DNA of 64,000 nucleotides from NCBI RefSeq assembly GCF_000745265.1, contig NZ_JQNN01000001.1, positions 3,286,001-3,350,000 on the forward strand, written 5' to 3'. A model generated the notes under the pieces. It worked only from the letters and a program-made list of their open reading frames with translations, was not told where the DNA came from and made no database searches. Of this stretch, positions 33,533 to 60,682 are shown one piece after another. Source of the stretch: Massilia sp. 9096 (GTDB lineage: Bacteria; Pseudomonadota; Gammaproteobacteria; Burkholderiales; Burkholderiaceae_D). Position 1 is the first letter of the stretch, and each line of letters starts with the position of its first letter. A program made the position numbers and the translations under genes.

Positions 33533-33561
33533 AATATACAGGATGGACGCCGTAGTGACAA
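33533..33561 (-). promoter_or_regulatory. Promoter of the alpha-glucosidase-glk operon
   Basis: TTGTCA (33561-33556), 17 bases, TATATT (33538-33533) on the minus strand, with a leader of about 20 bases. A half-site GTAGT (33552-33556) touches the -35 box. Confidence 0.7.
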
Positions 33562-33644
33562 TGCTGCAGCGCGCCATCGAGCCAGTAAATATCTTTAAGA
33601 ATCATGAACTTATAACAGGAGTTACCAAACAATCGCCAGCACGG

Positions 33645-33660
33645 CAGTAGTCAAACTACA
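33645..33660. promoter_or_regulatory. HexR-like palindrome between alpha-glucosidase and pullulanase
   Basis: GTAGT (33647-33651), CAA, ACTAC (33655-33659): perfect 5-bp arms, extended to ACTACA on the right. It lies 60 bases before pulA and 140 bases before the divergent alpha-glucosidase gene, so it could act on both. It is one of the set also found at 52063, 60412 and 60668. Confidence 0.65.
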
Positions 33661-33720
33661 CAATCGCTGCTAGGCTGTCGTGCTGACCGAACCAGACTCG
33701 ACCCAGACTCGACCGATACC

Positions 33721-36468
33721 ATGACCCAAGCCTTCGCCACCGCCAGCCTGTTTGCTTTCCTTGCCGGCGCCGCCGGCCTCGCCCAGGCCGCGATCCGGCC
33801 CGACAGCTGCGACAGCCCGAACTTCCAGATCGTCCAGTCGCCGGCCGCAGCCACCTTCGACGCGCGCGCCGTCTGGCTCGACAAGCGCCTGGTGCGCTGG
33901 CCTGGCGCGGCGACGGAGGGTGTCTTCAAACTGTACCATTCGCTTCGCGGTTCGATCGTCGCCCCGGTGGGCGGCAAGGTGGCCGGCGCGGTCGGCTCGA
34001 TCGTGCTGGCGCCGAGCACCGCGCCGGCGCCGCCCGGCGTGGCGGCGCGCTTCAAGTACCTGGCCGACGGCCCGCTGCTGCAGGTGAGCGAGAACGACGT
34101 CACCAACCTGCCCGACCTGCACAGCCAGCAGCTGGTGCTGGTGCGTGAAGATGCGGACGGCACGGTGCGCGACGCCACCCGCATCCAGGCGGCCGGCGCG
34201 CTCGACGATTTGTACGCCGCTGCAGCAGGCTTGAACACGCTCGGCGTCGACGTCGCCGGCGGCAGCACCCGCTTCACGGTCTGGGCGCCGACCGCGCGCC
34301 AGGCCGCCGTCTGCGTCTACGACAAGGCTACCAGCCGCGCGCGCGCCGCCTACCAGATGGACTTCGACCGCCGCACCGGCGCCTGGAGCGCGGCCGTGCC
34401 GGGCGATTTGACCGGCAAATATTATCGCTACGCGGTCGACGTGCCGGTCGACGGCGTGGGCATCGTGCGCGACCTGGTCACCGATCCGTATTCGGTCAGC
34501 CTGTCGACCGACTCGAAGCGCAGCTACATCACGCGCCTGGACGCGCCGCGCCTCAAGCCGGAGGGCTGGGACGCCACCGCGGCGCCGTCGACGGTCAGGG
34601 CGAGCACCGACATGGTGGTCTACGAAACGCACGTGCGCGACTTTTCGATCAACGACCCGAGCGTGCCGGAAGCGCACCGCGGCAAGTACCTGGCCTTTAC
34701 CGATCGGGCGACGAACGGCATGAAGCACCTGGCGGCGCTGGCCAGGGCCGGCGTCACCGATGTACACCTGCTGCCGGTCTACGACTTCGGCAGCGTGCCG
34801 GAAGCCGGCTGCGTCACGCCGCGCCCAAGCGGCGCGCCCGACAGCGAAGCCCAGCAGGCGCTGGTAATGAAGACCGCGGGCAGCGACTGCTTCAACTGGG
34901 GCTACGACCCGGTCCACTACAACGCGCCGGAAGGCAGCTACGCCACCGATCCGCAGGATGGCGCCAAACGCATCGTCGAGTTCCGTGAAATGGTCGAGAG
35001 CCTGCACCGGACCGGCCTGCGGGTCGGCATGGACGTGGTGTTCAACCATACCTTCAGCGCCGGGCAATCGGAAAAATCGGTGCTGGACCGCGTCGTGCCC
35101 GGCTACTACCACCGCCTGAACGACAAGGGCGGGGTCGAGCAATCGACCTGCTGCGACAACACCGCCACCGAGAACCTCATGATGGGCAAACTCCTGGTCG
35201 ACTCCGTCACGCAGTGGGCGGTGCAGTACAAGATCGACTCGTTCCGCTTCGACCTGATGGGCCACCAGCCGCGCGCGCTGATGGAGCAGCTGCAGCGCCA
35301 GGTGAACACGGCCAGCGGCCGGCGCATCGAGCTGCTCGGCGAAGGCTGGAACTTCGGCGAGGTCGCGGACAACCGCCGCTTCGTGCAGGCCTCGCAGCTG
35401 TCGCTCAACGGCAGCGGCATCGGCACCTTCAACGACCGCACCCGCGACGCGGTGCGCGGCGGCGGCGCCGGCGATGCGGGCGAAGCCATGTTCGCGCGCC
35501 AGGGCTGGATCAACGGCCTGGCGTACGACCCCAACGCGCACGCTCAGGCACACATGCAGGCGGGCGCGCAGGCGCGGTCCGAACTGCTGCGCAGCGCCGA
35601 CCTGGTGCGCGCCGGCCTGGCAGGCTCGATCCGTTCGTACAAGCTGCAGACTGCCGACGATCGCGTGCAAAACCTGGAAGCGATCGACTACGGCGGCCAG
35701 CCGGCCGGCTACGTGCTCGAACCGGGCGAAGTGGTCAACTACGTCGAGAACCACGACAACCAGACCCTGTTCGACATCGACGTGTTCAAGCTGCCGGTTG
35801 GCACTTCGAGCCAGGAACGCGCGCGCGTGCAGGTGCTGGGCCTGGCGGTCGACGCCTTCGCGCAAGGCGTGGCCTACTTCCACGCCGGCGTCGACATCCT
35901 GCGTTCCAAGTCGCTGGACCGCAACAGCTTCAATTCGGGCGACTGGTTCAACCGCGTCGACTGGAGCTACCAGACCAACGACTTCGGCAGCGGCCTGCCG
36001 CCGCAAGCGGACAACGGCAAGGACTGGGCCGCGATGAAGCCGCTGCTGGCCAATGCCGCCATCAAGCCGACGCCCGCCGACATCGCGTTCGCGCGCGACG
36101 CCTTCCGCGACCTGCTCGCGGTGCGCACCAGCTCGACGCTGTTCCGCCTTTCCAGCGCCGCCGAGATCAAGGGGCGCCTGCGCTTCTTCAACACCGGCGG
36201 CGCCCAGGAGCCGACCGTGGTCGCGGCGCACCTGGATGGCAACGGCTACCCCGGCGCCAACTTCAAGGGCATCCATTACTTCATCAACGTCGACAAGGTG
36301 GGACACACGGTGACGGATGCGCAGGCCGCCGGCAAGGCGCTGCACCTGCACCCGGTGTTCCTGGCGCCTGGCGTGGCCGACAAGCGTGCCACCCAGGCCG
36401 CTTTCGATGCGGCCAGCGGCGCGTTCAGCATTCCGCCGCGGACAGCGGTGGTGTTCGTGGAAGACTGA
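33721..36468 (+). CDS. pulA: Secreted pullulanase-type alpha-1,6-glucosidase
   Basis: A 915-residue debranching enzyme that cleaves alpha-1,6 links of pullulan, amylopectin and limit dextrins. The signal peptide ends AGLAQAA. An N-terminal beta domain (to ~170) precedes the CBM48-like E-set (TRFTVWAPTARQAAVCVY, ~184-245). The GH13 barrel follows with CFNWGYDPVHYN, DVVFNHT, SFRFDLMG (D511), LLGEGWNFGEV (E541) and VENHDNQ. A C-terminal beta domain ends VVFVED. It converges on the next gene with a one-base gap, so no terminator fits between them. Confidence 0.93.
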   Translation: MTQAFATASLFAFLAGAAGLAQAAIRPDSCDSPNFQIVQSPAAATFDARAVWLDKRLVRWPGAATEGVFKLYHSLRGSIVAPVGGKVAGAVGSIVLAPSTAPAPPGVAARFKYLADGPLLQVSENDVTNLPDLHSQQLVLVREDADGTVRDATRIQAAGALDDLYAAAAGLNTLGVDVAGGSTRFTVWAPTARQAAVCVYDKATSRARAAYQMDFDRRTGAWSAAVPGDLTGKYYRYAVDVPVDGVGIVRDLVTDPYSVSLSTDSKRSYITRLDAPRLKPEGWDATAAPSTVRASTDMVVYETHVRDFSINDPSVPEAHRGKYLAFTDRATNGMKHLAALARAGVTDVHLLPVYDFGSVPEAGCVTPRPSGAPDSEAQQALVMKTAGSDCFNWGYDPVHYNAPEGSYATDPQDGAKRIVEFREMVESLHRTGLRVGMDVVFNHTFSAGQSEKSVLDRVVPGYYHRLNDKGGVEQSTCCDNTATENLMMGKLLVDSVTQWAVQYKIDSFRFDLMGHQPRALMEQLQRQVNTASGRRIELLGEGWNFGEVADNRRFVQASQLSLNGSGIGTFNDRTRDAVRGGGAGDAGEAMFARQGWINGLAYDPNAHAQAHMQAGAQARSELLRSADLVRAGLAGSIRSYKLQTADDRVQNLEAIDYGGQPAGYVLEPGEVVNYVENHDNQTLFDIDVFKLPVGTSSQERARVQVLGLAVDAFAQGVAYFHAGVDILRSKSLDRNSFNSGDWFNRVDWSYQTNDFGSGLPPQADNGKDWAAMKPLLANAAIKPTPADIAFARDAFRDLLAVRTSSTLFRLSSAAEIKGRLRFFNTGGAQEPTVVAAHLDGNGYPGANFKGIHYFINVDKVGHTVTDAQAAGKALHLHPVFLAPGVADKRATQAAFDAASGAFSIPPRTAVVFVED

Positions 36469-36469
36469 T

Positions 36470-38287: not shown

Positions 38288-38518
38288 CCCGGTTCCTTCG
38301 TGTTGGTTTGTGTAGAGGCCAGCATCGCCGTTTACCGATTGCCGATCAAACAATTTGTGGCGAAGCGGGATCTGGTGGGGGCGAACCGGGGAAATCGCGG
38401 CGCGAACACGCCGACCCGGCAATGAACCACGGCTGCGCACGCGTGAGTCAAACGCGCGAACGATGCTCAAATAAAATGGTAATCTGCAACTTTGCCACAA
38501 AATTAAGCACCCATAGAC

Positions 38519-39544: not shown

Positions 39545-39604
39545 GGCCGGTCACGCGCGCCTGAAGGTGATGCTGGAGAGCCGGTTCTAGCCGGCCCTTC
39601 GACG

Positions 39605-40489: not shown

Positions 40490-42373
40490 TCAGACGTCGA
40501 GGTGGGAGATCAGCATGCGCCGGCGCTCGGTGTCGCCGTCGCCGTTGGCGTCGCCCTGGGCGCCGAGCGAGATGCCGACCGCCATGATGTCGATCAGCAG
40601 CAGCTGCAGGATGCGCGAGATCATCGACAGGAAGGTGGTCGAGTCTTCGCTGTGGTCGACCGCCAGGCAGATGCTGGCCTTGCGCGCCAGCGCCGACTTG
40701 CTGCTGGTGATGGCGATGACGTCGGCGCCGGCGGCGCGCGCGGTGTCCACGGCCGACAGCAGCTCGGGCAGCTGGCCGGTGGTCGAGATCGCGATGACGA
40801 CGTCGCCCGGGCCGAGCAGCTCGGCGGCCAGCGCGAACAGGTGCGAGTCGCCATACAGCGCGGTCGGGATGCGGAAGCGGAAGAATTTGTGCTGGCCGTC
40901 CAGCGCCACCACGCGCGAATTGCCCATCGCGTAAAACTCGACGCGCTTGGCTTTGCGCAGCAGCTCGATCGCGCGGTCGATCGAATTCACGTCGAGCTGG
41001 TCGCGGAACTTCAAAATGGCCGAGACGGTGTTGTCGATGACTTTCGCCGACAGGTCGTGCGTCGAGTCGGTCATGCGCACCTGGCTGTGGCGCACCGGAA
41101 TCGTGCCGGTCAGGCTGCCGGCGAATTTCAATTTGAAGTCGGCCAGGCCGGAAAAGCCGAGCGAGCGGCAGAAGCGGATCACGGTCGGCTGGCTGACGTC
41201 GGCCAGCTTGGCGATCTCGGCGATCGGCTCGGACAACACCTTGCGCGGATGGTCGATCACCAGCGTGGCGACGCGCTGCTCGGCCGGCGACAGCTCCGAC
41301 TGCAGGCGCTGCACGCGCTCCATCAGCGTGTTGGCGCCGCTGCGGTTGCGCAGGTGCTCGGACAGGATGCGCGAGACGCCGTACAGGGCCGGGTTGGGCG
41401 TCATGATCACGTAGGTCGGGATCTGCGCCAGGTAGTCGGTGAAGCGCCCCTTGGCTTCGAAGCGGGCGCGGAACGGCGAGGTCTTGAACCATTCCCCCAT
41501 GCGCGGCACGATGCCGCCGCCGATGAAGATGCCGCCGAACGCGCCCAGCGTCACCGCCAGGTTGGCCGCGGCCCCGCCCAGCATGCCGCAGAAGCACTCC
41601 AGCACTTCCAGGCACAGCGGGTCCTTGTCTTCCAGGGCGCCGGCGATGATCTCGGCCGAGCTGCGCGCCCGCGCCTTGTTGTCCAACCGGGCGCCGTTAC
41701 GCCCGGCCAGCGCGCGGTAGATGATCTCCATCCCGGGGCCCGAGATCAGGCGCTCGTTCGAGACGTGCTGGTAGTCGCGCCAGGCGTACTGCAGGATCGC
41801 GAACTCGCGCTCGTCGGCCGGGGCGAAGTTGACGTGGCCGCCCTCCGAGCCGAGCGTGACGAAGCCGTCGACGGTCGGGATCACGCCCGACACGCCCAGG
41901 CCGGTGCCCGGACCAAGAACACCCGACACTGCGTTCTGCGCCGCCTTGCCGCCGCCGACCTGCATCAGGTCGCCCGGCTCGAAGCCCGGCAGGCCCATTG
42001 CCAGCGCGGTGAAGTCGTTCACGATCAGCAGCGTGGTCAGGCCGAGGGTGCGGCGCAGGTCCTCGGTCGAGAACTGCCAGTCGCGGTTGGTCATGCGGAT
42101 GAAGTCGCCACTGATCGGATTGGCCAGCGCGAAAGCGCCGTGGCTGATGCGCACGCCGCCGGTCTGCGCCTGGATCTGCGCCAGGTAGGCTTCGAGCAGC
42201 GGGACGATGCCGGGGTAGTCGTCGCACAGCAGCACGGCGACGTTGCGCTGCACGCCGGGCGCGATCTCGAGCGCGAAGCGGGCATGGGTCGCGCCGATGT
42301 CGGCCAGCAGGCGAGGGCCGTCGCTGTAGGCGGCGCGGGTTTGCTTCTGTTCGGTGGCGTGCTCGGTGGTCAT
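40490..42373 (-). CDS. glk: Glucokinase fused to HexR/RpiR-type regulator (copy 2)
   Basis: A 627-residue paralogue of the protein at 29984-31849, colinear along its whole length. It has glucokinase motifs LLADIGATHARFAL, VLGPGTGLGVSGVI and SEGGHVNFAP, the HexR-like helix-turn-helix (VSQPTVIRFCRSLGFSGLADF) and a SIS domain (MGNSRVVALDGQ). Divergence is greatest in the N-terminal ~20 residues, the middle glucokinase surface and the C-terminal tail. Unlike copy 1 it is not behind a glucan hydrolase; it leads a pair with an EamA transporter. ATG 42373 is preferred to an in-frame ATG at 42409, which lies inside an upstream dyad. Confidence 0.93.
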   Translation of the reverse strand: MTTEHATEQKQTRAAYSDGPRLLADIGATHARFALEIAPGVQRNVAVLLCDDYPGIVPLLEAYLAQIQAQTGGVRISHGAFALANPISGDFIRMTNRDWQFSTEDLRRTLGLTTLLIVNDFTALAMGLPGFEPGDLMQVGGGKAAQNAVSGVLGPGTGLGVSGVIPTVDGFVTLGSEGGHVNFAPADEREFAILQYAWRDYQHVSNERLISGPGMEIIYRALAGRNGARLDNKARARSSAEIIAGALEDKDPLCLEVLECFCGMLGGAAANLAVTLGAFGGIFIGGGIVPRMGEWFKTSPFRARFEAKGRFTDYLAQIPTYVIMTPNPALYGVSRILSEHLRNRSGANTLMERVQRLQSELSPAEQRVATLVIDHPRKVLSEPIAEIAKLADVSQPTVIRFCRSLGFSGLADFKLKFAGSLTGTIPVRHSQVRMTDSTHDLSAKVIDNTVSAILKFRDQLDVNSIDRAIELLRKAKRVEFYAMGNSRVVALDGQHKFFRFRIPTALYGDSHLFALAAELLGPGDVVIAISTTGQLPELLSAVDTARAAGADVIAITSSKSALARKASICLAVDHSEDSTTFLSMISRILQLLLIDIMAVGISLGAQGDANGDGDTERRRMLISHLDV

Positions 42374-42395
42374 TGCAATTCTTCTGATGAGGGGT

Positions 42396-42409
42396 TTCCC
42401 ATATGGCAA
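42396..42409. promoter_or_regulatory. Dyad upstream of glucokinase copy 2
   Basis: TTCCC-ATAT-GGCAA reads as an imperfect 14-bp palindrome centred on CATATG, 23 bases before the gene. It is unlike the TGTAGT-N3-ACTACA sites of the glucan genes. Possible operator; no regulator assigned. Confidence 0.3.
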
Positions 42410-42452
42410 TAGGATACCATTGAATGAATTGCACCAAAACGGGGTGCGCCCC

Positions 42453-43502
42453 TTATTTCATCGCGTCGTTGCGCAGCCGTTTCGTGAAGAAGGTCGTCGC
42501 ACTCATTGCCCCGTCCGGCATCAGGCAAAAGTCGGGCACCGCGCCGACGCGCTGCCAGCCGAGGCGCTCGTACAGCCGCTCGGCGGCCGGGTTGGCGGTG
42601 TCCAGCACCAGCACGGTCCTGCCCTGCGCGCGCGCGGCGTCCTCGACCGCCTCCATCAGGCGCCGGCCGATGCCGCCATTGCGCGCGCGCCGGTGCACCA
42701 GCAGCTTGGAGACATCGGCGCGGTGCGGCTGGTTGTCCGGGGTGTCGGTGACCAGCTGGACGGTGCCGACGATGCCGTGACCGTCCTCGGCCACCAGCAG
42801 CGTGCGTTCGCCGCGCTCGAGCGAGGCGATCGTCTTGTGCCAGAAGCGCAGCGCGGTCTCGCGCGCCATCGGCAGCATGAAGTTGACCGAGGCGCCGCCT
42901 TCGACGCAATCGACCAGAACGTCGGCCAGCTGCTCGATGCGCGCCGTGGCCTCTTGCGCATCGATCCGGCGCACGCTGCGGCCCGGATTCAGTTCCCCCA
43001 GATTCAGTTCCCAATAGCCGACGTCGACCCAGCGCCCGAACTTCAGCCCGACTTCCGAAAAATGCGCGACCTTGCGAAAGCCCAGGCTTTCGTGCAACGC
43101 GACGCTGGCCTGGTTCGGCTGGGCGATGCCGCCAATGGCCATGTGGCGGCCGTGCGCGCGCAAGTCCTCGAGCAGCGCGCCGTACAGCCGGCGCCCGAGG
43201 CCGCGTCCCGCATACGCCGCGTCCATGTAGATCGAGCTCTCGACCGAATAGCGGTAGGCCGAGCGCACGCGCCATTTGGTGGCATACGCATAGCCCGCGA
43301 TGTTCCCGTCCACCTCGATCACCAGCCAGGGCAGATCGGCGTCGAACACGGCTTCGATGCGCTGCGCCATCGCCGCCGCGTCGACCGGCTCCTCCTCGAA
43401 GCTGATCGTCGTGGTGGCGATGTAATGGTTGTAGATGGCGCAGATGGCGCCGGCATCGAGCGCGGTGGCGGAGCGGATGGTCTCGGTCATGGTCGCGGTC
43501 AT
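42453..43502 (-). CDS. Tandem GNAT acetyltransferase (PPT-acetyltransferase-like plus second GNAT)
   Basis: A 349-residue fusion. Residues ~5-165 resemble phosphinothricin/arsinothricin N-acetyltransferases: YNHYIATTTISFEEEPVD, SSIYMDAAYAGRGLGRRLYG (acetyl-CoA loop) and VGLKFGRWVDVGYWEL. Residues ~180-345 are a second GNAT: TLLVAEDGHGIVGTVQLV, VHRRARNGGIGRRLMEAVE and LYERLGWQRVG. Each half keeps its own acetyl-CoA loop, so both may be active. It is six bases after the alpha/beta hydrolase gene and probably co-transcribed. A later in-frame ATG at 43490 is an alternative start. Confidence 0.85.
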   Translation of the reverse strand: MTATMTETIRSATALDAGAICAIYNHYIATTTISFEEEPVDAAAMAQRIEAVFDADLPWLVIEVDGNIAGYAYATKWRVRSAYRYSVESSIYMDAAYAGRGLGRRLYGALLEDLRAHGRHMAIGGIAQPNQASVALHESLGFRKVAHFSEVGLKFGRWVDVGYWELNLGELNPGRSVRRIDAQEATARIEQLADVLVDCVEGGASVNFMLPMARETALRFWHKTIASLERGERTLLVAEDGHGIVGTVQLVTDTPDNQPHRADVSKLLVHRRARNGGIGRRLMEAVEDAARAQGRTVLVLDTANPAAERLYERLGWQRVGAVPDFCLMPDGAMSATTFFTKRLRNDAMK

Positions 43503-43508
43503 GCGGGC

Positions 43509-44558
<1,050 letters not shown>

Positions 44559-44592
44559 GGTGCTTCCTCAGCAAATGACGATGCCATCGAGT

Positions 44593-46545
44593 CTAGCCGA
44601 TCTGGCCACGCTGCGTGTCGAGTGTCGGCTCAGCCGGCGACCGGATCGGGTCCGGCAGCGTCCGCACCGGGTCCGGGACGGCCGCATCGGCCCCGGCCGG
44701 CAGCGCCGGCAGCGACACCACGAACTCGCTACCCTGCCCCCGGCCGGCGCTGCTGGCCGTCACCGTGCCGCCGTGCTGCTCGACCAGGCGCCTGGACAGC
44801 GCCAGCCCGACACCGAGCCCGCCCCCGGAGAGGTCGGTCTTGCGCGTCTCCTGGGTGAACAGCTCGAACAAGTGCGCCATCAGGTCGGACGACATGCCGA
44901 TGCCATGGTCGCGCACCGACAGCAGCACGCGATTGTCGCGCGCCGCCAGCGCCAGCTCGATGCGGCCATCGGCCGGCGTGTAGCGCACCGCGTTGTCGAG
45001 CAGGTTGGCCACTACCTGCACCAGGCGCTTGCGGTCGCCCAGCACCAGCGCCGGCTCGGGCGCCAGCAGGGTGTCGATGCGATGACGCTTGGCCGCGGCC
45101 AGCGGCGCGTTCTGCTCCATCGCCTCGGCGACGACGTCGCGCAGGTCGAGCGCCTGGCGCGCCAGCGTGAACTGGCCGCGCGTGACACGCGAGACGTCGA
45201 GCAGGTCGTCGACCATGCCGGTCATGTGGCGGACCTGGCGCGCGATCATGCCGCCCAGGCGGCGCTGCTGCGCGTCGTCGGCGCGGCCCATGCCGAGCAG
45301 GTCGGCGGCGGCGGAAATCGGCGCCAGCGGGTTGCGCAGCTCGTGCGCGAGAGTCGCCAGGAATTCGTCCTTGCGGCGGTCGGCTTCGCGCAGCGAGGCC
45401 TGGTTGGCCTGCAGCTTGCCGATCAGCGATTGCAGCGCGCTGCGCAGCACGCCGATCTCGCGGTAGCCTGCATCCACCGCGTCGATGCGGTCGGTATCCA
45501 TCGCCTCGATGCGCCGCGCCGATTCGGCGATCGCGCCGAGCGGGCGCGCGACGCGCCTGGCCAGGACCCAGGCCAGCGCCGCGAACAGCGCGGCGATGAC
45601 GGCGCCGGCCAGCATCCCCTGGTGGCGCAGCCGGACCACCGGCGCATAGGCCAGGTCGAGGTCCTGGCGCACCATCACCGTCCAGCCCAGGCCGGGGGAA
45701 GCGCCATAGCCTTGCGTCTTGCTGTAGCCGACCAGGTAGCGCTTGTCGTCGGCGAAGCGTTTGACCGCGTAGCCGTTCGCGTAGGCGCCGGGCGCAGCCA
45801 GGTCCGGCAGGGACAGGCGCGTGCCCACCAGCTGTCTGGGGCCGATGATGACGCGCATGTCCGGCGCCAGGATCAGGGTCTCGGCGCCGCTGCGCCTGAG
45901 CAGCGGCAGCATCACCGAACGCTCGATGTCGGCGGCCCAGGCCAGGCTCAGGTGGGTGCCGAACATGCCGGCGATGCGGCCCTGCGGATCGCGGTAGGGA
46001 AAGGCGACGTCGATGAAGCGCAGCGGTTCCTGGCTGGCGTTCGGTCCCTTGCGCAGCAGCTTGTCGAGCAGCGCCGCTTCGTGCACGTCGGTCAGGTGGA
46101 TGCCCTGCAGCGCGCGCCCGAACCACGGGCGTTTCGAAACGTCGACGCCTTCCAGCACACGGTTGGCGGACACCAGCACCCTGCCCTCGCGGTCGGTCAG
46201 GCCGAGCCAGGCGTAATAGGCGTAGGTCTTCTGCATGTCCTCGAGCAGGCGGCGCTTGTCGTCCAGGGTGTCCGCCCTGCCCAGCCCCGGCTGGCTGGCC
46301 AGGATCTGGACTTCGCGGTAGCGCTCGAACAGGCTGCGGTCCAGTTTGTCGGTCGCCTGGATCGCCAGTTCGGCGAACTGCTGGCCGATGTCCTGTTTCT
46401 CGCGCTGCGTGAACAGGACGTCGAGCACGCCCGCCAGCACCAGCGTGATCAGGACGACGAGTCCGGCCAGCAGGAGGGTCAGCTGCGTCGAGATGCCCAG
46501 GTCCCTCAGGGAACGTGGCAAGTAATATCTGTCTTTACCCAGCAT
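44593..46545 (-). CDS. Membrane sensor histidine kinase with dCache sensor
   Basis: A 650-residue kinase. TM1 (QLTLLLAGLVVLITLVLAGV, ~21-40) is followed by a periplasmic Cache-type sensor (~45-310; YYAWLGLTDREGRVLVSANR and GYGASPGLGWTVMVRQDLDL), TM2 (~320-340), a HAMP segment, HisKA with phosphoacceptor H401 in TLAHELRNPLAP, and an ATPase domain (NLLDNAVRYTPADGR; DHGIGM; GGGLGVGLALSRRLVEQHGG). The C-terminal ~40 residues are Pro/Asp-rich. Such sensors often detect small metabolites. No response regulator is adjacent. Confidence 0.92.
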   Translation of the reverse strand: MLGKDRYYLPRSLRDLGISTQLTLLLAGLVVLITLVLAGVLDVLFTQREKQDIGQQFAELAIQATDKLDRSLFERYREVQILASQPGLGRADTLDDKRRLLEDMQKTYAYYAWLGLTDREGRVLVSANRVLEGVDVSKRPWFGRALQGIHLTDVHEAALLDKLLRKGPNASQEPLRFIDVAFPYRDPQGRIAGMFGTHLSLAWAADIERSVMLPLLRRSGAETLILAPDMRVIIGPRQLVGTRLSLPDLAAPGAYANGYAVKRFADDKRYLVGYSKTQGYGASPGLGWTVMVRQDLDLAYAPVVRLRHQGMLAGAVIAALFAALAWVLARRVARPLGAIAESARRIEAMDTDRIDAVDAGYREIGVLRSALQSLIGKLQANQASLREADRRKDEFLATLAHELRNPLAPISAAADLLGMGRADDAQQRRLGGMIARQVRHMTGMVDDLLDVSRVTRGQFTLARQALDLRDVVAEAMEQNAPLAAAKRHRIDTLLAPEPALVLGDRKRLVQVVANLLDNAVRYTPADGRIELALAARDNRVLLSVRDHGIGMSSDLMAHLFELFTQETRKTDLSGGGLGVGLALSRRLVEQHGGTVTASSAGRGQGSEFVVSLPALPAGADAAVPDPVRTLPDPIRSPAEPTLDTQRGQIG

Positions 46546-46637
46546 GAAGGAGACCGGCGGCGGCCGAACGATCGAAAGGCAGAGTGTACCTTACTCAGCA
46601 GTATCGGTATTGGTTTTGCCGGTTGCGAGGCGGATTA

Positions 46638-47051
46638 TTATCGATTCGTGGCGCGCCGCGGCATCGTTTCGTCCATCTCCCTCAATGCGTCGATGGCTTT
46701 CGACTGCGCTTCGCCGGTTCCGAACGCCGCCTGGCACGACAGCATGCGCTGGCGCTCGGGCGCCTCCGTCCACTCGGTACGCGCTTTCGCGAGCACGGTT
46801 GCGTATTCCGGCCCCTTGCGCATCTCCACGACCCAGTTGGCGGTCGCCTTGTCAAAACCGCTGGTCCACATGTTGGAAATGGCGGGTCGAAGACTTGGCG
46901 CATCTTCGGCGCAGCGTTCGCCGAGGGCTTCCATCCGAGCGAAATGGTCCATGGCTTGCGCGGGCCTCATCACGTCCTCGGCATGCGCTGCGAACGTAGC
47001 GAATACGCTGGCCAACGCGGCCAGCGCCAGACTTGATCTGACTTTCGACAT
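46638..47051 (-). CDS. Small exported protein, function unknown
   Basis: A 137-residue protein with a signal peptide ending FAAHAED, then a helical domain with Cys at ~48 and ~105 that could form a disulphide. No family recognised. It lies alone between the kinase and amylase genes, preceded by an AT-rich stretch with TATCTT. Confidence 0.6.
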   Translation of the reverse strand: MSKVRSSLALAALASVFATFAAHAEDVMRPAQAMDHFARMEALGERCAEDAPSLRPAISNMWTSGFDKATANWVVEMRKGPEYATVLAKARTEWTEAPERQRMLSCQAAFGTGEAQSKAIDALREMDETMPRRATNR

Positions 47052-47147
47052 CGATATGCTCGATTTCCATAAATTTCTTTAAGGAAAGATAGCACAAGCG
47101 CTTGAAGATACAAACGGAAGCAGCCTGCCCCGTTGCCCGCAAAAGTG

Positions 47148-48860
47148 TCAGTCCTGCGCGATCAGCGCCACCGGCGCCGGCGTATCGAACTGCACCTTGC
47201 CGCCGGCGACGGTGGCGGTCTTCCCGGTGAACCAGTCGCGGACAAGCTGGCCGTCCCCGAACACGCCGGCCACGGAAATCGGCATGGCGCGGTTCTGCGG
47301 CAGGTCGAGCGCGACCACCACGCGGTCGCTCACGCCGCCCTTCTCGTAGGTGCGCTTGAAGGTGTAGGGGCTGGCGGCCAGCATCTGGTGCGCGCCCGCG
47401 CCCACGGCCGGGTGCGCGTGGCGGAAGCGCCCCAGGCGCGCCCAGTAGTCGCGCACGTCGGCCACGCCGCCGGCGTCACCCCGGCCGACCTTGGCGTTGG
47501 ATGCCAGCTGGTCCCAGTTCATGAAGGAACGCAGGTTGGCGTCGCCTTGCGCGCCTTCGACTTTCAACACGCGCGCGGTCTCGTCGCCGTAGTAGATCTG
47601 CACCTGGCCCGGGGCCAGCAGCAGCTTGTTGGCTTCCTCGAACGGGTGCTGGCGCAGCGCGTCGAACGGGCCGCCGTCGTCGTGCGAGTCGAGGTAGTTC
47701 AGCACCGACGCGCCCGGGTGCGCCGCCTGGATCCGGCGCAGGCTGTTCGAATAGGTGGAGAACAGCGTTTCGTAGCTGCCGTGCGCATCGTGCGGCAGGC
47801 TGAAGTTGATCATGCTGTCGAAGCCGTTGTCGAAGTAGTCGACCTTGGTCCCGCCGTCGTAGGTGAACTCGCGTCCGCCGTTGACCGAGTAGCCGTACAC
47901 CTCGGACGTCATGAAGAACGGCACGTTGCCGATCTGCTCCATGGCAGCCTGGCCGGCCGGCGTTTTCTTCCAGTCTTCATAGGCGGCGCTGGCGACCGTC
48001 TTCAAGTCCTTCCACACGCCCGGTTCGGTGTGCTTGACGGTGTCGCAGCGGAAGCCGTCGATGCCGTACTTGCGCACCCAGTCGGCGTGCCACTTCATCA
48101 GGTAGTAGCGCGGCGCGCGCGGATAGCCGGTGCGATTGAAGAAGTCGTCCAGCTCTTTCACCTCGCGCTCGTAGCGCCCTTCCTTCTTCCACTTCGCAAC
48201 GAGCATCGGCGGCAGCGCGACGCTGGCATCGCTGTCGGTGCGGATGTCGGGCAGGTTCTTCACCAGCGTGCAGCTGGTGGTGGTGCGCATGTCCTTGAAG
48301 GTGCAGGTCGGGCCGGTCCGCACCCAGTCGGCCGGCCACACCGGGTCTTGGGCGGTGACCGGGCCGGTATGGTTGACCACCACGTCGAGCAGTACGCGGA
48401 TCCCGCGCGCGTGCGCGGCATCGACCAGGTCGTGCAGGTCCCGCTCGCTGCCGAGGTTGGCGTCCATCGCAGTGAAATCCCTGGCCCAGTAGCCGTGGAA
48501 GGCATAGGTCTTGCCGGTGCCTTCGTCGGTGTAGCCGTGGATCTGCTCGACCGGCGGGGTGATCCAGATCGCATCCACGCCCAGGTCCGTGAAATAGCCC
48601 GCCTTGACCTTGGCCGTCACACCGGCCAGGTCGCCGCCCATGAACCCGCGCCCGACCGCCGCATCGGCCATGCGGCCATACGCATGGTCGTTGGCCGGGT
48701 CGGCGTTGTCGAAGCGGTCGGTCAGCAGGAAATAGACGGTCGCGTTCTCCCAGGTGAACGGCTTCGCGCGCGCGCCGGCGGGCGCGGGCGCGTCCGCGGA
48801 TGCGCTCGAGGCCGAACCGAAGGCGAGCATCAGGGAGATGGCGAGGGCGGATACTTTCAT
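47148..48860 (-). CDS. Periplasmic/secreted alpha-amylase (MalS-like, GH13)
   Basis: A 570-residue exported enzyme (signal peptide ending SASADA). It begins the barrel with ENATVYFLLTDRFDN and has DVVVNHT, DGFRCDTVKH (nucleophile D273), FMTSEVYG (acid/base E320) and YLDSHDDGG (D394). This resembles GH13_19 periplasmic amylases such as MalS, which cut maltodextrins from the non-reducing end. It is the last gene of the MFS-pgm-amylase operon, 28 bases after pgm. Confidence 0.88.
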   Translation of the reverse strand: MKVSALAISLMLAFGSASSASADAPAPAGARAKPFTWENATVYFLLTDRFDNADPANDHAYGRMADAAVGRGFMGGDLAGVTAKVKAGYFTDLGVDAIWITPPVEQIHGYTDEGTGKTYAFHGYWARDFTAMDANLGSERDLHDLVDAAHARGIRVLLDVVVNHTGPVTAQDPVWPADWVRTGPTCTFKDMRTTTSCTLVKNLPDIRTDSDASVALPPMLVAKWKKEGRYEREVKELDDFFNRTGYPRAPRYYLMKWHADWVRKYGIDGFRCDTVKHTEPGVWKDLKTVASAAYEDWKKTPAGQAAMEQIGNVPFFMTSEVYGYSVNGGREFTYDGGTKVDYFDNGFDSMINFSLPHDAHGSYETLFSTYSNSLRRIQAAHPGASVLNYLDSHDDGGPFDALRQHPFEEANKLLLAPGQVQIYYGDETARVLKVEGAQGDANLRSFMNWDQLASNAKVGRGDAGGVADVRDYWARLGRFRHAHPAVGAGAHQMLAASPYTFKRTYEKGGVSDRVVVALDLPQNRAMPISVAGVFGDGQLVRDWFTGKTATVAGGKVQFDTPAPVALIAQD

Positions 48861-48888: not shown

Positions 48889-50583
<1,695 letters not shown>

Positions 50584-50604: not shown

Positions 50605-51951
50605 TTAAGATGCCTGGTGCGCCGTATTGACTTCGGCCTTGTCGGTCACGAACAGCGTCATGACCGCGGCGACCAGCATGCACACGCCGCCCAGCACCAG
50701 CGTCATCACCGCATGGCCGCCGAACAGCTGCTTGGTGAAGAAGCCCAGCAGCGCGCCGCTGAGGATCTGCGGGATCACGACGAAGAAGTTGAACAGGCCC
50801 ATGTAGTAGCCCATGCGGTTGGCGGGCAGCGCGCCGGCCAGGATCGCATACGGCATGGTCAAGATGCTGGCCCAGGCGATGCCGACGCCGATCATCGGCA
50901 CCATCAGCATGCTTTTATCGTGCACGAAGAACAGGCTGGCCAGCGACACGCCGCCGATGGCCAGGCACACCGTGTGACACAGCTTGCGGCTGGTCGCACG
51001 CGCCAGCACCGGCAGGATGAAGGCGGCCAGCGCCGAGATGCCGCCGTACACCGCGAACATCAGGCCGACCTGGTTGGCGGCTTCCTGGTAGACGGTGGTC
51101 TGTGGGTCGAGCGTGCCGTAGACATTGTCGGCGACCGCAGGAACGGTGTAGATCCACAGCGCGAACAGCCCGATCCAGGTGAAGAACTGCACGACCGCCA
51201 GCTGCACCATGGTCCTGGGCATGTGGCCGAAGCCGCCGATGATCTCGCGCGCCGCGGTGCCGAAGCCGCCCGCTTCCTTGCGCTGGGCGTGGAAGCGTTC
51301 GAGGTCGGCCGGCGGCAGTTCACTGGCGGTAAGCACGGTCCAGCTGACCGCGGCCAGGAAGATCGCGCCGCCGATGTAGAACGAGTAGCGCACCGAATCC
51401 GGGATCGCGCCGTTCACCGGCACGTTCGAGACGTGCAGCACGTCGGTGAAGAACATCGGCAGCAGCGAGGCGATCACGCCGCCACAGCCGATGAAGAAGG
51501 TCTGCATCGCGTAGCCGGCGGTCTGCTGCGAGGGGTCGAGCTTGTCGCCGACGAAAGCGCGGAACGGCTCCATCGAGATGTTGATCGACGCGTCCAGCAG
51601 CCACAGCACGGCCACCGCCATCCACACCGCGCTCGAATTGGGCATCAGGAACAGACCGAGCGCGGCCAGCACGGCGCCGGTGAAGAAGAAGGGACGGCGG
51701 CGACCCCATTTCGGGTGCCAGGTGTTGTCGCTCAGGTAGCCGATGATCGGCTGGACCAGCAAGCCGGTGACGGGCGCCGCCAGCCAGAACACGGACAAGT
51801 CTTCCAGGCCGGCGCCGAGGGTGGCGAAGATCCGGCTGGTATTGGCGTTCTGCAGCGCGAAGCCGAACTGGATGCCGAAGAAGCCGAAGCTCATGTTCCA
51901 CAGCTGCCAGAACGACAGGCGCGGCTTGAGCGTGTGAGTTTGCATTTCCAT
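50605..51951 (-). CDS. MFS sugar transporter (maltose/SLC45-like)
   Basis: A 448-residue, 12-helix inner-membrane carrier. The N-terminal LSFWQLWNMSFGFFGIQFGFALQNANTSRIF and GYLSDNTWHPKWGRRRPFFF are typical of the SLC45-like MFS branch that imports sucrose or maltose with protons and often sits in bacterial maltodextrin loci. It probably carries maltose or short maltodextrins from periplasm to cytoplasm, the step between the TonB receptor and the cytoplasmic alpha-glucosidase. First gene of the operon with pgm and amylase; AGGGGACA upstream of the start resembles the leader of the TonB receptor gene. Confidence 0.88.
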   Translation of the reverse strand: MEMQTHTLKPRLSFWQLWNMSFGFFGIQFGFALQNANTSRIFATLGAGLEDLSVFWLAAPVTGLLVQPIIGYLSDNTWHPKWGRRRPFFFTGAVLAALGLFLMPNSSAVWMAVAVLWLLDASINISMEPFRAFVGDKLDPSQQTAGYAMQTFFIGCGGVIASLLPMFFTDVLHVSNVPVNGAIPDSVRYSFYIGGAIFLAAVSWTVLTASELPPADLERFHAQRKEAGGFGTAAREIIGGFGHMPRTMVQLAVVQFFTWIGLFALWIYTVPAVADNVYGTLDPQTTVYQEAANQVGLMFAVYGGISALAAFILPVLARATSRKLCHTVCLAIGGVSLASLFFVHDKSMLMVPMIGVGIAWASILTMPYAILAGALPANRMGYYMGLFNFFVVIPQILSGALLGFFTKQLFGGHAVMTLVLGGVCMLVAAVMTLFVTDKAEVNTAHQAS

Positions 51952-52062: not shown

Positions 52063-52077
52063 TGTAGTCAAACAACA
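52063..52077. promoter_or_regulatory. HexR-like palindrome upstream of the MFS-pgm-amylase operon
   Basis: TGTAGT-CAA-ACAACA: one mismatch from TGTAGT-N3-ACTACA and the same CAA centre as the site at 33647. Flanking GA/TC extends the palindrome. It is about 33 bases upstream of the -35 box. Confidence 0.6.
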
Positions 52078-52126: not shown

Positions 52127-53953
<1,827 letters not shown>

Positions 53954-54053
53954 GGCAGAAAATCTCGTAAAGAATCGGAAACTAAGCGAAAGCAAACCGA
54001 TAGTTTACTCGGTCGGAGGCAACCCGCCCGGATTATTTCGCGCCTGGGCGGAT

Positions 54054-55226: not shown

Positions 55227-55618
55227 CAGGCCATTCCCGCGTCCGATGCACGCGCGCCTGACAGCAGGCGCCGCAGCATGTTGACCATCTCGTCGATCGC
55301 AAATGGCTTGGACAGCGCATCGTCGAAGCCCGCTGCAGCCGATTCGGCGGCCAGGTTCGCCATGGCCGACACCAGGACCGCGGGCGCCTTCAGCCCGCAT
55401 GCTCGCATATGCTTGAGAGCCTGGGCGCCGTTCAAGCCCGGCATGCGAAAGTCGAGCATGACCAGATCGGGAGCGAACCCATCACATACGGCGGCGACGG
55501 CCGAGCGCGGGTCGTCATGTGTTGAAACCTTGAAGCCTTCGATTTCGAGCAGGCAGGCGACGCTTTCGAGAAAATCCAACTCGTCGTCAACGATCAGCAA
55601 GTGAGATGTAGCTGCCAT
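55226..55618 (-). CDS. Single-domain response regulator
   Basis: A 130-residue receiver with no output domain: acidic pair D11-D12 (LLIVDDELDF), phosphoacceptor D56 (VMLDFRMPG), S84 (VLVSA) and K104 (ALSKPF) are all present. Stand-alone receivers act as phosphate shuttles or bind partner proteins. Translationally coupled to the GAF protein downstream, which is its likely partner. Confidence 0.88.
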   Translation of the reverse strand: MAATSHLLIVDDELDFLESVACLLEIEGFKVSTHDDPRSAVAAVCDGFAPDLVMLDFRMPGLNGAQALKHMRACGLKAPAVLVSAMANLAAESAAAGFDDALSKPFAIDEMVNMLRRLLSGARASDAGMA

Positions 55619-55742
55619 AACTTATCCTACACCAGCTCGCAATGAAGCGGCTCATCGCCGTGTTCAAAATCAAAAAGTTTGTGCAATCAGACAACACTGG
55701 CGGTTTCCTCGCTCCGCTGCATCACGAGTTTGGTCGCACTCC

Positions 55743-57269: not shown

Positions 57270-57285
57270 GGTGTGCCAGGATACG

Positions 57286-57319
57286 AAAAAGCCCTGCGGC
57301 CGGGAAGGCCTGCAGGGCT
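57286..57319 (-). terminator. Terminator of the TonB receptor gene
   Basis: AGCCCTGC/GCAGGGCT 8-bp stem (57290-57297, 57312-57319) with an inner GGCC/GGCC helix, followed on the minus strand by TTTTTC. It separates the receptor from the halogenase, which would need read-through or its own promoter. Confidence 0.8.
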
Positions 57320-57345
57320 CGTTGTCGGCTTATGCCAACGCGGGA

Positions 57346-60177
57346 TCAGAACTTGTAGTTCAGACCGTACAGCAGGGTGCGGCCGTACTTGGTATCGGTG
57401 ATGACGTTGTCTTTCGTCTTGCGATATTCCTTGTACTCCTGGTTGTTGACGTTGTTCATCTCGACCAGGAAGGACACGCCTTTCAGCGGACCGGTCTGCA
57501 CTTCGTAACCCAGCTGCAGGTCGATGGTCTGGCCGCCCTGGATGTAGGTCAGCTGCTGTTCGCCGGTGTTCTGCTCGACCGAACCGATGAAGTCGGAACG
57601 GAAGCGGTCAGCCACACGCGCCGAGAAGCCGGCTTTTTCGTAGTACAGGGTCAGGCTGGCCACGCGTTTCGACAGGCCCGGCAGCATCATGTTGCCGGCG
57701 CCGCCGTTGGTGATGTCCGGAATCGAGACCGAGCTGCCGGTCTGCGACGCGTTGGCGACCACGCCGAAGCCGTCCAGGTAACGGGTCAGCACGTTCAGCG
57801 GCAGCGACGCCGCCAGTTCGATGCCCTTCATCTGGCCGCCCGAACCGTTGATCGGGGCGCTGTACGAACCGATCACGCTCGGCGCCTGGAAGGTGCTCGG
57901 CTGGATGTACTGCGTGAAGTCGAACTGCTGTTCGGCGGTCACGACGTAGGTGTCGAGCTTGCGGTAGAACACGGCCGCGCTGACGTAAGCCTTGCTGTCC
58001 CAGTACTTCTCGTACGACAGGTCGATGCCCTTGGCGCGGAACGGCTTCAGGTTCGGGTTGCCGCCGCTGCCGGTGTAGATACCGCGGGTCTGGTCATAGC
58101 CGAACGAGCCGCTGGCGCGCATCTGTTCCAGGGTCGGACGGGCCATGATCTTCTCGACCGAGAAGCGCAGGGTCTGCTGGTTGCCCAGGTCGCCGATCAG
58201 GTTCAGGCTCGGCAGGAAGTCGTTGTAGCTGGTGCCACGATCGACCGGTGCGGTCGGACGGGTCGCGTCGCTGCTGCCGCTCGCGGTGTCGACCGAGAAC
58301 GCGGTCGACGACTGGTTGGTGTGGATGCCCTGCACGCCCAGCGCGCCGCGCACCGGCATCCAGCCGAGTTGCGTATCGATGTTCAGCTTGGCGAACACGG
58401 TCTCGACCTTCTCGCGGACGGTCCAGTCCTTGTTGGTGATCTCCGGGTGCAGCTTCGGATCCAGGTTGTAGACGCCGATGTTCTGGACCGGATCAAAAGT
58501 GACGATGTTGATGCCGCTGGCGCCCGCCTGGGCGACGCCGCTGTTCGGGTAGGCGGCGCTGGCCAGCGGGTTGCTCTGGCCGGCGATCGACATCAGGTCT
58601 TCGGTGTACGAACGGGTCTTCGAACGGTTCGAGAAGTTGGCGCCGAAGTCGACCTTGCTGAACAGCCAGCCGTCCGGCAGGTCGCGGATGGCGTCGAAGC
58701 GGATCGCGTCGATCTGGTCGTACACGTGCGGGAACTTGACGTAGCCGGCCTGGACCTGCGTACCGCCCCATGCCGAAACGTCGCGCAGGCGGATGTTGTT
58801 GGTGTCGGCGTAGTTCAGGGTCGGGGTGACCGAGGTGCCGTTGAAGTTCACGGTGTCGTACTGCGACGAGCCGCCGTAGGTCTCGATGTTGGTGCCGTCG
58901 CGCTGGGCCGAGTTGAACGACAGGTCGACTGCTGCGGTCCAGTCCTGGTTCACGCGCAGTTTGTTGTTCCAGCCGATCGACTTGGTGACGTCGCTCCAGG
59001 CTACGGCATCGTTGCGCACGGTGCCGCGCACGTTGCTGATGGTGCCGGCGGTGACGACACCGTTGGTCACGGTGGCGTTGGTCAGCACGCCCCGCTGGTC
59101 GTACGGCAGGCCGGTCGGGGTCGAGTAGACACCGGTCTTGGCGTCCACGGTCGGCGCCGCGTCGAACATGTTCAGCTGCAGGCCGCGGCTGCTGGTGTCG
59201 CGGTTGTAGCGGGTGTAGAGCAGGTCGATGGTGCTGCTGAAGTCGCGGTTCGGCTTGAACTGGATCACGCCCATCAAGCCGTTGCGGTTTTCCTTGTAGG
59301 TGTCGGTCCAGTTCTCGATGCCGTCGTTCTGAATGCGCACCGATTGGCCGTTGTAGCTCCACGGATTCGACACCGGGTCGTTCATGCCCCACGAGCCGAG
59401 ACGGGTGCTGTCGCCGCTCTTGTCCTGCAGGCGCGCGAAGCCGAAGGCGACGCCGATCTTGCGGTCGGCGAACTGGTCGATGTAGGAGAAGGTGAAGCGG
59501 TTGCCGCTGCCCTTGTTGTCCATGCCCAGGCCGGTCTTCTGGCGGCGGTAGTTGACCGCCATCGTGCGCTCTTTGAAATCGAGCGGACGCACGGTCTGCA
59601 TGTCGACGGTGCCCGACAGGCCCTGGCCGACCAGCGCGCCGTCCGGCGTCTTGTACACGACCACGCCCGACAGCAGTTCGCTCGGGTAGTTGTCGAATTC
59701 GACGCTGCGGCTGTCGCCGGTCGAGACTTGCTCGCGGCCGTTCAGCAGGCCGGTCGAGAAGTCCGGCGACATGCCGCGGATCGAGATGACCGATGCCTGG
59801 CCGCGCACGTTCTGTGCGGTCACGCCCGGCAGACGCGCGATCGACTCGGCGATCGACTGGTCCGGCAGCTTGCCGATGTCTTCGGCGGAGATCGCCTCGA
59901 CGATGGAGTCATTGTTCTTCTTGACCGAGATCGCGGCTTCGATACCGCGGCGGATACCGGTCACCTTGACGGTCTGGACGCCGACGTTGCCGTTGGTCGG
60001 CGCAGCGTCACCGCCGGCTTGGGCGGTCGCCTGGCTGGTGGTTTGTTCTTCTTGTGCATAGGCGGCATGGCCAGCCAGTGCCATGAAAATGGCGCAGCCC
60101 GCTGCAACCGGGCTGAGTTGGAATGCAGAGCTGCCCGGCGTCGTGCGCGCCGAGCGCTTGCTTGCGAAAAGGTTCAT
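57346..60177 (-). CDS. TonB-dependent outer-membrane receptor, probably for maltodextrins
   Basis: A 943-residue receptor of the large Xanthomonas/Caulobacter carbohydrate type. The signal peptide ends AAYAQ. A TonB-box region (VQTVKVTGIRR) is followed by a plug (EDIGKLPDQSIAESIARLPGV; QASVISIRGM; DNYPSELLSGVVVYKTPDG) and a ~700-residue barrel ending in the aromatic GLNYKF. It takes oligosaccharides across the outer membrane using TonB. The maltodextrin call rests on its divergent GH13 partner and shared palindromes. ATG 60177 has GAGGGG five bases upstream; an in-frame ATG at 60276 lies in the leader and is rejected. Confidence 0.9.
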   Translation of the reverse strand: MNLFASKRSARTTPGSSAFQLSPVAAGCAIFMALAGHAAYAQEEQTTSQATAQAGGDAAPTNGNVGVQTVKVTGIRRGIEAAISVKKNNDSIVEAISAEDIGKLPDQSIAESIARLPGVTAQNVRGQASVISIRGMSPDFSTGLLNGREQVSTGDSRSVEFDNYPSELLSGVVVYKTPDGALVGQGLSGTVDMQTVRPLDFKERTMAVNYRRQKTGLGMDNKGSGNRFTFSYIDQFADRKIGVAFGFARLQDKSGDSTRLGSWGMNDPVSNPWSYNGQSVRIQNDGIENWTDTYKENRNGLMGVIQFKPNRDFSSTIDLLYTRYNRDTSSRGLQLNMFDAAPTVDAKTGVYSTPTGLPYDQRGVLTNATVTNGVVTAGTISNVRGTVRNDAVAWSDVTKSIGWNNKLRVNQDWTAAVDLSFNSAQRDGTNIETYGGSSQYDTVNFNGTSVTPTLNYADTNNIRLRDVSAWGGTQVQAGYVKFPHVYDQIDAIRFDAIRDLPDGWLFSKVDFGANFSNRSKTRSYTEDLMSIAGQSNPLASAAYPNSGVAQAGASGINIVTFDPVQNIGVYNLDPKLHPEITNKDWTVREKVETVFAKLNIDTQLGWMPVRGALGVQGIHTNQSSTAFSVDTASGSSDATRPTAPVDRGTSYNDFLPSLNLIGDLGNQQTLRFSVEKIMARPTLEQMRASGSFGYDQTRGIYTGSGGNPNLKPFRAKGIDLSYEKYWDSKAYVSAAVFYRKLDTYVVTAEQQFDFTQYIQPSTFQAPSVIGSYSAPINGSGGQMKGIELAASLPLNVLTRYLDGFGVVANASQTGSSVSIPDITNGGAGNMMLPGLSKRVASLTLYYEKAGFSARVADRFRSDFIGSVEQNTGEQQLTYIQGGQTIDLQLGYEVQTGPLKGVSFLVEMNNVNNQEYKEYRKTKDNVITDTKYGRTLLYGLNYKF

Positions 60178-60280
60178 GTGTCCCCTCAAATCGTTCAGTG
60201 TTTTCCCCGACACACCAAGATGGTGAGCATTACGCGGGAGCCAGATAGCAAACGTTCTTCTTAGACGTTCTGGCAAGGAT

Positions 60281-60308
60281 TCTGTATTAAAACTAGATGC
60301 ACTGTCAA
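60281..60308 (-). promoter_or_regulatory. Promoter of the TonB receptor gene
   Basis: Perfect TTGACA (60308-60303), 16 bases, TACAGA (60286-60281), giving a leader of about 95 bases. The whole divergent gap 60178-60708 (531 bases) is AT-rich relative to the window and gene-free; TGTAG occurs six times on its plus strand (60412, 60483, 60548, 60601, 60641, 60668). Confidence 0.55.
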
Positions 60309-60411
60309 CGGGAGTTCTTCTGGACTACTTGATTCGCAGGTTTTTGAGCATGTTTTACACGGGGAGACTATGGAACGTTGTATTCGAGCTACAGACAACC
60401 CCCATCATCAA

Positions 60412-60426
60412 TGTAGTCGTACTACA
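60412..60426. promoter_or_regulatory. HexR-like palindrome, perfect copy
   Basis: TGTAGT-CGT-ACTACA, a perfect 6-3-6 palindrome in the receptor/GH13 divergent region. It lies about 100 bases upstream of the receptor -35 box. Confidence 0.75.
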
Positions 60427-60547
60427 AAGCGCTTTCCACTCCCCAAGAAGGGTTGTCTCAGCACTATTTTGGTGCGAATTCCTGTAGTAGATTTACCGAA
60501 ACTTTCATCAGCTCTGAAACAAACTCAAGTTTTACCTATACAAAAGC

Positions 60548-60562
60548 TGTAGCAAAACTAGA
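60548..60562. promoter_or_regulatory. HexR-like palindrome, degenerate copy
   Basis: TGTAGC-AAA-ACTAGA: one mismatch in each arm compared with TGTAGT-N3-ACTACA. Same spacing and orientation as the perfect copy. Confidence 0.4.
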
Positions 60563-60667
60563 AGATAAAAACCGTGTACAGATTGCCGCACCTCGTTCAC
60601 TGTAGTATTCTCCGCGAAATAGTAGAAAATTTGCATGTTTTGTAGATGAAACTCTAGCCCAAGGCGA

Positions 60668-60682
60668 TGTAGTTGCACTACT
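60668..60682. promoter_or_regulatory. HexR-like palindrome next to the GH13 gene
   Basis: TGTAGT-TGC-ACTACT: perfect 5-bp arms (60669-60673, 60677-60681), one mismatch at the outer base. It ends 26 bases before the GH13 start, where bound protein would block the promoter or early transcript. Confidence 0.65.

Follow-up and report, generated by a model that had tools for sequence, protein, structure and literature searches.

Which protein reads the palindrome that precedes the starch genes of Massilia sp. 9096? We addressed this question in a window of 64,000 nt from its 5.71-Mb genome (contig NZ_JQNN01000001.1, positions 3,286,001 to 3,350,000), where genes for starch use lie together with two genes, glk1 and glk2, that encode a glucokinase fused to an RpiR-type HTH_6 domain and an SIS domain. 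The position and conservation of the sites, and their co-occurrence with the fusion, point to TGTAGY-N3-RCTACA as the operator of these fused glucokinases, a reading to which we assign a probability of roughly 0.8. The fused domain, which resembles HexR and RccR, would act in dimeric or tetrameric form, binding arrays of sites upstream of the starch genes, the operon of glk1 itself among them. It would most likely repress these genes, and a sugar phosphate in the SIS domain would cause the fusion to release the DNA or to change state. If this is correct, a fusion found in many genera gains a predicted operator, a regulon and a biology, and a direct circuit from enzyme to gene becomes testable in soil bacteria. 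In related genomes, such sites are found almost exclusively where the fusion is present, which suggests that starch use is switched in part by the enzyme itself.

Palindromic sites before the starch genes

The initial annotation of this window had proposed that its glucan genes share the palindrome TGTAGT-N3-ACTACA, and our analysis confirmed this. Allowing up to two mismatches, the pattern occurs at 8 places in the window against 0.25 expected, and 0 of 100 shuffled sequences reach 8. Seven of the eight sites sit in three starch promoters; the eighth (57140), within a halogenase-family gene, is probably a chance match. Four of the five coordinates first proposed stand, and the fifth, 33647, was one base off, as that site starts at 33646. 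The proposal that the sites lie only before starch genes holds within the window at one mismatch but not genome-wide, where a refined pattern, TGTAGYN3RCTACA, has 27 places. The sites and the one promoter-like sequence discussed here are as follows (window positions throughout).

33646-33660: predicted operator AGTAGTCAAACTACA, 1 mismatch, between the GH13-glk1 pair and the pullulanase gene
52063-52077: predicted operator TGTAGTCAAACAACA, 1 mismatch, upstream of the MFS gene
60283-60297: operator-like site, 2 mismatches, receptor/GH13 intergenic region; half-sites 0.97 conserved in 25 genomes, flanks too (0.91)
60379-60393: operator-like partner, 2 mismatches, 33 bp from the exact site; half-sites 0.99 conserved, flanks 0.35
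60412-60426: exact predicted operator TGTAGTCGTACTACA, 0 mismatches, receptor/GH13 intergenic region; the sole exact site among the five first proposed
60548-60562: operator-like TGTAGCAAAACTAGA, 2 mismatches; half-sites 0.85 conserved, flanks 0.34
60668-60682: predicted operator TGTAGTTGCACTACT, 1 mismatch, 27 bp before the start of the cyclomaltodextrinase-like GH13 gene; half-sites 0.89 conserved, flanks 0.29
60279..60308, minus strand: promoter-like TTGACA-N18-CAGAAT for the receptor; blocks covering it 0.91-1.0 conserved

These sites recur in relatives. The site upstream of the MFS gene is present at up to two mismatches in 30/30 loci of the genus (this genome included) and at up to one mismatch in 24/30, and the TonB receptor gene is preceded by an exact site in 26/30 loci, 25 of which also have the partner site 32-33 bp away. 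When the receptor/GH13 intergenic region was aligned for 25 of the 30 loci (L163, L164, L175, L184 and L185 were dropped, four of them lacking the exact site), identity to the window was 94% in the half-site columns and 48% elsewhere. The 3-bp spacers vary at 4/5 aligned sites, and the fifth sits in a wholly conserved promoter-like block. We also analysed 77 loci of named relatives, mostly Massilia, Duganella, Pseudoduganella and Rugamonas, taken from the best 80 of 183. At up to one mismatch, the refined pattern is present in 42/55 GH13, 20/32 MFS and 17/52 pullulanase promoters, compared with 13 sites across 1.50 Mb of background sequence. Allowing two mismatches and widening the windows brings this to 47/55 GH13 and 28/31 MFS promoters, although all these promoter counts are affected by some wrong gene starts, as genes were called by the GC bias of codon positions.

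The 60283-60297 site falls between the -35-like and -10-like hexamers of the receptor promoter-like sequence, and a site inside a conserved promoter-like sequence fits repression. The promoter scan alone is no evidence, as it found one such sequence for the receptor where shuffled sequences gave a mean of 0.8. The same intergenic region contains an inverted repeat of another kind, GCACTATTTTGGTGC (60461-60475), whose conservation across the 25 genomes is 0.75 and which may serve a further regulator.

Across the whole genome, the original pattern has 7 places at up to one mismatch, 4 of which lie within the three starch promoters. We judged 11 of the 27 places of the refined pattern (1 mismatch) to be regulon-like: six belong to the window promoters, two stand in tandem ahead of a GH31 gene at a distance of 0.7 Mb, one lies 79 bp upstream of a standalone glucokinase gene and two precede a porin gene. 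Among the remaining 16, 11 lie inside called genes, 4 are intergenic without a fitting target and the last, at window position 20423, lies at the start of a chemotaxis-receptor open reading frame (ORF).

Co-occurrence of the palindrome with the glucokinase-RpiR fusion

To relate the palindrome to its candidate readers, a single set of 195 genomes from the family was searched for the fusion, HexR and the exact motif TGTAGYN3RCTACA. A fusion was counted where the best match was approximately 1e-160 or stronger, and the partial match of G178 was added (three of the 95 fusion genomes, G111, G147 and G178, have partial matches). The exact motif is present in 69/95 genomes with the fusion versus 1/100 without it. 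Among genomes that encode HexR, the motif occurs in 62/81 with the fusion and in 0/55 without, and by genus in 14/18 and 0/26, respectively. Permuting the fusion labels within the 8 mixed genera only gave p = 0.0026. By contrast, the reversed control pattern was unlinked to the fusion (84/95 with, 84/100 without, p = 0.41), and thus genome size or composition does not explain the co-occurrence.

More distant fusions, which we term group B (approximately 50-55% identical), provide a second line of evidence. In an unbiased count of gapped palindromes in the 2.6 kb upstream of these genes, TGTAG-N5-CTACA ranks first, in 7/12 representatives, compared with 4 for the next-best palindrome and at most 4 in shuffled sequences. 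Group-B fusions often follow a second zwf gene, and the motif lies before zwf2-fusion pairs in several genera. Thus, the motif is not specific to starch genes, and the common element is the fusion. The group-A fusions, in turn, are often found in starch operons: 46/107 directly follow a GH13 gene, with a median gap of 58 bp, and 19/107 follow an amylase gene within 600 bp, whereas 42/107 were left unassigned by our script, some of them where the stretch ended or the gap was larger. The proposal that the glucokinase fusions control the starch regulon is borne out to this extent: co-occurrence, the group-B motif and operon context make them the best candidates for binding, and the starch sites are most likely operators read by them.

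Gene identities in the window were assigned through Pfam and NCBIfam models with curated cut-offs, giving the following genes.

29984..31855, minus strand: glk1, glucokinase fused to RpiR-type HTH_6 and SIS (Pfam Glucokinase, HTH_6, SIS); overlaps the end of the GH13 gene
31846..33504, minus strand: GH13 (alpha-amylase family) enzyme, leading the GH13-glk1 pair (Pfam PF00128)
33721..36468, plus strand: pullulanase-type alpha-1,6-glucosidase (Pfam PF11852, PF17967, PF02922)
40490..42409, minus strand: glk2, the second glucokinase-RpiR-SIS fusion (Pfam); its glucokinase core aligns with PDB 1q18
47148..48860, minus strand: alpha-amylase family GH13 (Pfam PF00128)
48889..50520, minus strand: phosphoglucomutase (Pfam PGM domains)
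50605..51951, minus strand: MFS transporter, leading the MFS-pgm-amylase run (Pfam PF07690; the TIGR01301 sucrose/proton symporter match is below cut-off)
57346..60276, minus strand: TonB-dependent receptor (TIGR01782, 562 bits, above cut-off)
60709..62583, plus strand: cyclomaltodextrinase-like GH13, with an ATG start picked in this analysis (Pfam PF09087, PF00128, PF10438)

For the GH13 gene at 31846..33504, no NCBIfam model was above its cut-off among the matches listed. Both fusions carry HTH_6 followed by SIS above the Pfam cut-off, which is the domain order of RpiR/MurR-type proteins. The initial annotation placed the only RpiR-type DNA-binding domains of the window on the two glucokinases; the genome adds a standalone HexR outside the window. 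The fusion architecture has already been named by NCBI, as NF010701 (bifunctional transcriptional regulator/glucokinase, PRK14101). This model aligns over most of its span with both proteins but scores 812 bits for glk1 and 807 bits for glk2 against a cut-off of 920; judging from the shared glucokinase-HTH-SIS architecture, the window fusions are relatives, not filed members, of NF010701. In the alignment of glk2 with E. coli glucokinase 1q18, the NDFT, EGGH and SGPG blocks, which we take to be the conserved active-site blocks of glucokinase, are identical. A literature search returned no paper whose title or abstract concerns a glucokinase-RpiR fusion controlling starch genes, although it did not cover the key comparative paper on HexR, and we do not claim priority.

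Two features of the neighbourhood are set down here. In the stretch 40490-47147, three genes of unrelated kinds, which we read as GNAT-like, hydrolase-like and sensor-kinase-like, separate glk2 from the amylase operon, whereas in L107-L109 glk2 is the first gene found downstream of the amylase. A tryptophan-halogenase-family gene (PF04820, 55743-57269) adjoins the TonB receptor gene here and also in L101 and L110.

Weighing the candidate readers

Several observations weigh against the fusions as readers of a defined operator. First, the genome-wide scan, suggested at the outset as a check, gave regulon-like places before the GH31, glucokinase and porin genes but no enrichment: the original pattern has 87 places versus 351 for the reversed control at two mismatches, and the refined pattern 27 versus 147 at one; in the other genomes, too, motif counts per genome do not exceed the control. 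A lone weak match therefore means little, and it is position, conservation and co-occurrence that carry the argument. We also rejected the GH31 sites as independent support, because the other three GH31 genes found carry none. Second, 8/55 GH13 and 3/31 MFS promoters of the named relatives have no site at two mismatches, at which 0.13 sites per 700 bp are expected anyway. Third, the site before the GH13 gene lies clear of the promoter-like sequence identified at that position, and the search upstream of the MFS gene yielded none. Finally, 26/95 genomes with the fusion lack the exact site (12/12 of g38, 2/2 of g34 and twelve further genomes), G194 carries the site without the fusion, and part of the co-occurrence is due to common loci and common ancestry. 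For g38 and g34 (L114, L115 and L134), where the fusion is present and the exact palindrome is missing from the whole genome, one possible explanation is a changed operator.

Trigger enzymes are metabolic enzymes that also control genes. Like them, the fusions join a metabolic enzyme to a DNA-binding regulator, a likeness of architecture. HexR sites have the broader consensus TGTARTWWWAYTACA. The nearest proven operator among those compared is that of RccR, a HexR-like RpiR protein of Pseudomonas that binds the 15-bp site TGTAGT-N3-ACTACA by surface plasmon resonance and DNase I footprinting and regulates aceEF, the glyoxylate shunt and gluconeogenesis (PMC5489143, PMC10810197). The same sources describe RccR as a tetramer in a crystal with 2-keto-3-deoxy-6-phosphogluconate (KDPG) and report a second, 28-bp site with N16 spacing (PMC5489143, PMC10810197); the window has no match to this longer site at up to two mismatches. 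The fusions and RccR belong to the same family, and the window sites match the 15-bp RccR operator in sequence. RccR, however, is a standalone protein whose targets are central carbon genes and not starch genes, whereas the window proteins are fused to glucokinase. The initial comparison of the palindrome with a HexR site is correct as to type (RpiR, HexR/RccR); it is RccR that provides the nearest proven operator, and the site of this genome's own HexR is A/T-centred.

The alternative that fares best is a version of the preferred explanation, in which the fusions do bind these sites, with the SIS domain sensing KDPG as RccR does and the enzyme merely sharing the polypeptide as a passenger. 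We regard this as a serious possibility that falls somewhat short of even odds. Both RccR and HexR are described as sensing KDPG, and this genome has zwf and edd. The KDPG contacts given for RccR are S139, H148, R152, H164, S183, S185, S188, K270 and R277 (PMC10810197). The residues aligned with H148, R152, H164 and S183 are present in 104/104 group-A fusions, as are the arginines aligned with RccR R53 and R56, although the totals of 104 and 16 in our sets comprise only the fusions recognised by a crude regular expression, which mis-assigned some. Other contacts are less constant: the S139 position is Ser in 81 and Ala in 23 of the 104, and the S185 position is Ser in 69. At the S188 position, 93 have Leu, the K270 position is Arg in 73 and Lys in 13, and the window fusions have C-terminal tails that look unlike that of RccR. 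As S188 and K270 are mostly missing, either KDPG or a different phosphosugar may be the ligand. Against a mere passenger, that the fusion has persisted across many genera suggests a link between its halves. The S139A substitution was considered as a mark of the GH13-linked copy and dropped, as it does not follow gene context.

A bolder form of the preferred reading is that glucokinase itself acts as the transcription factor of the whole polysaccharide regulon, set by its kinase flux or occupancy. We entertain this tentatively and would sooner bet against it. Glucose 6-phosphate, or a phosphosugar derived from it, would then carry the signal in the SIS domain; the targets would include receptors, amylases, a debranching enzyme, a sugar transporter, other glucokinases and pyruvate kinase; and the two fusion copies, one within its own starch operon, would tune the regulon.

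It is improbable that the starch sites are instead read by the standalone HexR, with the fusions being glucokinases that carry a vestigial regulator. Besides the two fusions, this genome has a third RpiR-type HTH_6 gene, a standalone one directly after zwf; its product is best matched by the HexR model, yet below the cut-off (254 versus 296 bits). The recognition helix of this HexR is similar to that of the fusions, and the domains and DNA-contact arginines are common to both. In addition, a HexR-type sequence, TGTAGTAGATTTACC (2 mismatches), lies in the receptor/GH13 intergenic region at 60483-60497, making cross-talk of HexR with the starch regulon possible, and one GH31 site also fits the HexR pattern at 2 mismatches. 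HexR, however, is unfused and controls zwf and the Entner-Doudoroff pathway, and its sites differ from those before the starch genes. The Pseudomonas HexR site is given as TTGT-N7/8-ACAA. Among the 21 zwf promoters taken, 15 have exact TGTAGTAAATTTACA, 4 have it with one mismatch, 1 has a weak site and 1 has none, and a weaker second copy lies 32 bp from the site in 13/21 genomes. The edd and pgi promoters of this genome have the same HexR-type motif as zwf. Such sites have an A/T centre and a TTTACA right half, whereas the starch sites have symmetric halves and a free spacer; the HexR-type sites of this genome are TGTAGTAAAWTTWCA-like, unlike the starch palindrome, and the fusions here are not beside zwf. 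The initial annotation had named a separate HexR gene, if shown to bind these sites, as evidence against control by the fusions. Such a gene is indeed present beside zwf, but the exact motif is absent from 55/55 genomes that have HexR without the fusion, and together with the different zwf, edd and pgi motif this led us to reject HexR as the sole reader. The labels 'alone/fused' and 'standalone' in our comparisons stem from the crude regular expression mentioned above and were not used as counts of standalone proteins. We had also considered g64 and g74, which lack the beta-type HexR, as a clean natural test, and rejected them because they carry another HTH_6 protein, an open frame of approximately 300 residues. 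If the preferred reading is correct, two look-alike RpiR regulons that annotation could lump together would be told apart, HexR for Entner-Doudoroff genes and the glucokinase fusion for starch. The separate HexR-type regulon (edd, pgi and zwf-hexR) has its TGTAGTAAAWTTWCA-like sites at L016:1651, 1845, 8255 and 8287.

Starch regulons elsewhere are often under LacI proteins, and a LacI/MalR-type or other unlinked starch regulator might read the palindrome, which we consider slightly less probable still. Of the 7 LacI genes in this genome, one adjoins ribosomal-protein genes and has no sugar genes in its vicinity. By our reading of their neighbours, however, none of the 7 adjoins starch genes, and LacI was rejected as the reader on this ground; moreover, the motif also marks zwf2-fusion pairs in other genera and matches a proven RpiR operator (that of RccR; PMC5489143). 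Least credible of all is that the sites are chance matches, or promoter or terminator structure: although the pattern is no commoner genome-wide than its reversed control, this view is already contradicted by the background counts (8 against 0.25 expected in the window, and 13 sites per 1.50 Mb against 42/55 GH13 promoters), by the conservation of half-sites around variable spacers at 4/5 sites and by the link between motif and fusion across 195 genomes.

Genes next to the palindrome in relatives

The sequence TGTACYWAAACTACA, or one base off it, lies upstream of glucokinase in 15/20 relatives' genes taken. For a wider view of the regulon, we chose 20 exact sites by hand, not at random, among the matches listed, omitting zwf2-fusion pairs and the receptor of genus g1. 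Five of the 20 lie 9-25 kb from the fusion gene and 15 lie elsewhere. By Pfam and our own reading, as not every neighbouring gene was run against Pfam, 16/20 adjoin sugar or starch genes, including 11 of the 15 distant ones. The neighbours are alpha-amylase-type genes (5), TonB receptors (3), pyruvate kinase (2), pullulanase (2) and, once each, GH1, glucokinase, an MFS transporter and a solute-binding protein; three of these 16 sites (L301, L307 and L319) fall inside an ORF called by the script. The remaining four (L308, L309, L315 and L316) have no assignable neighbour.

The two operator-like sites before the Gram-negative porin gene of Massilia sp. 9096 lie 44 bp apart (L017:9589 and 9633). 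In two g72 genomes, an exact operator-like site precedes pyruvate kinase (L300 and L304), which would tie the regulon to lower glycolysis.

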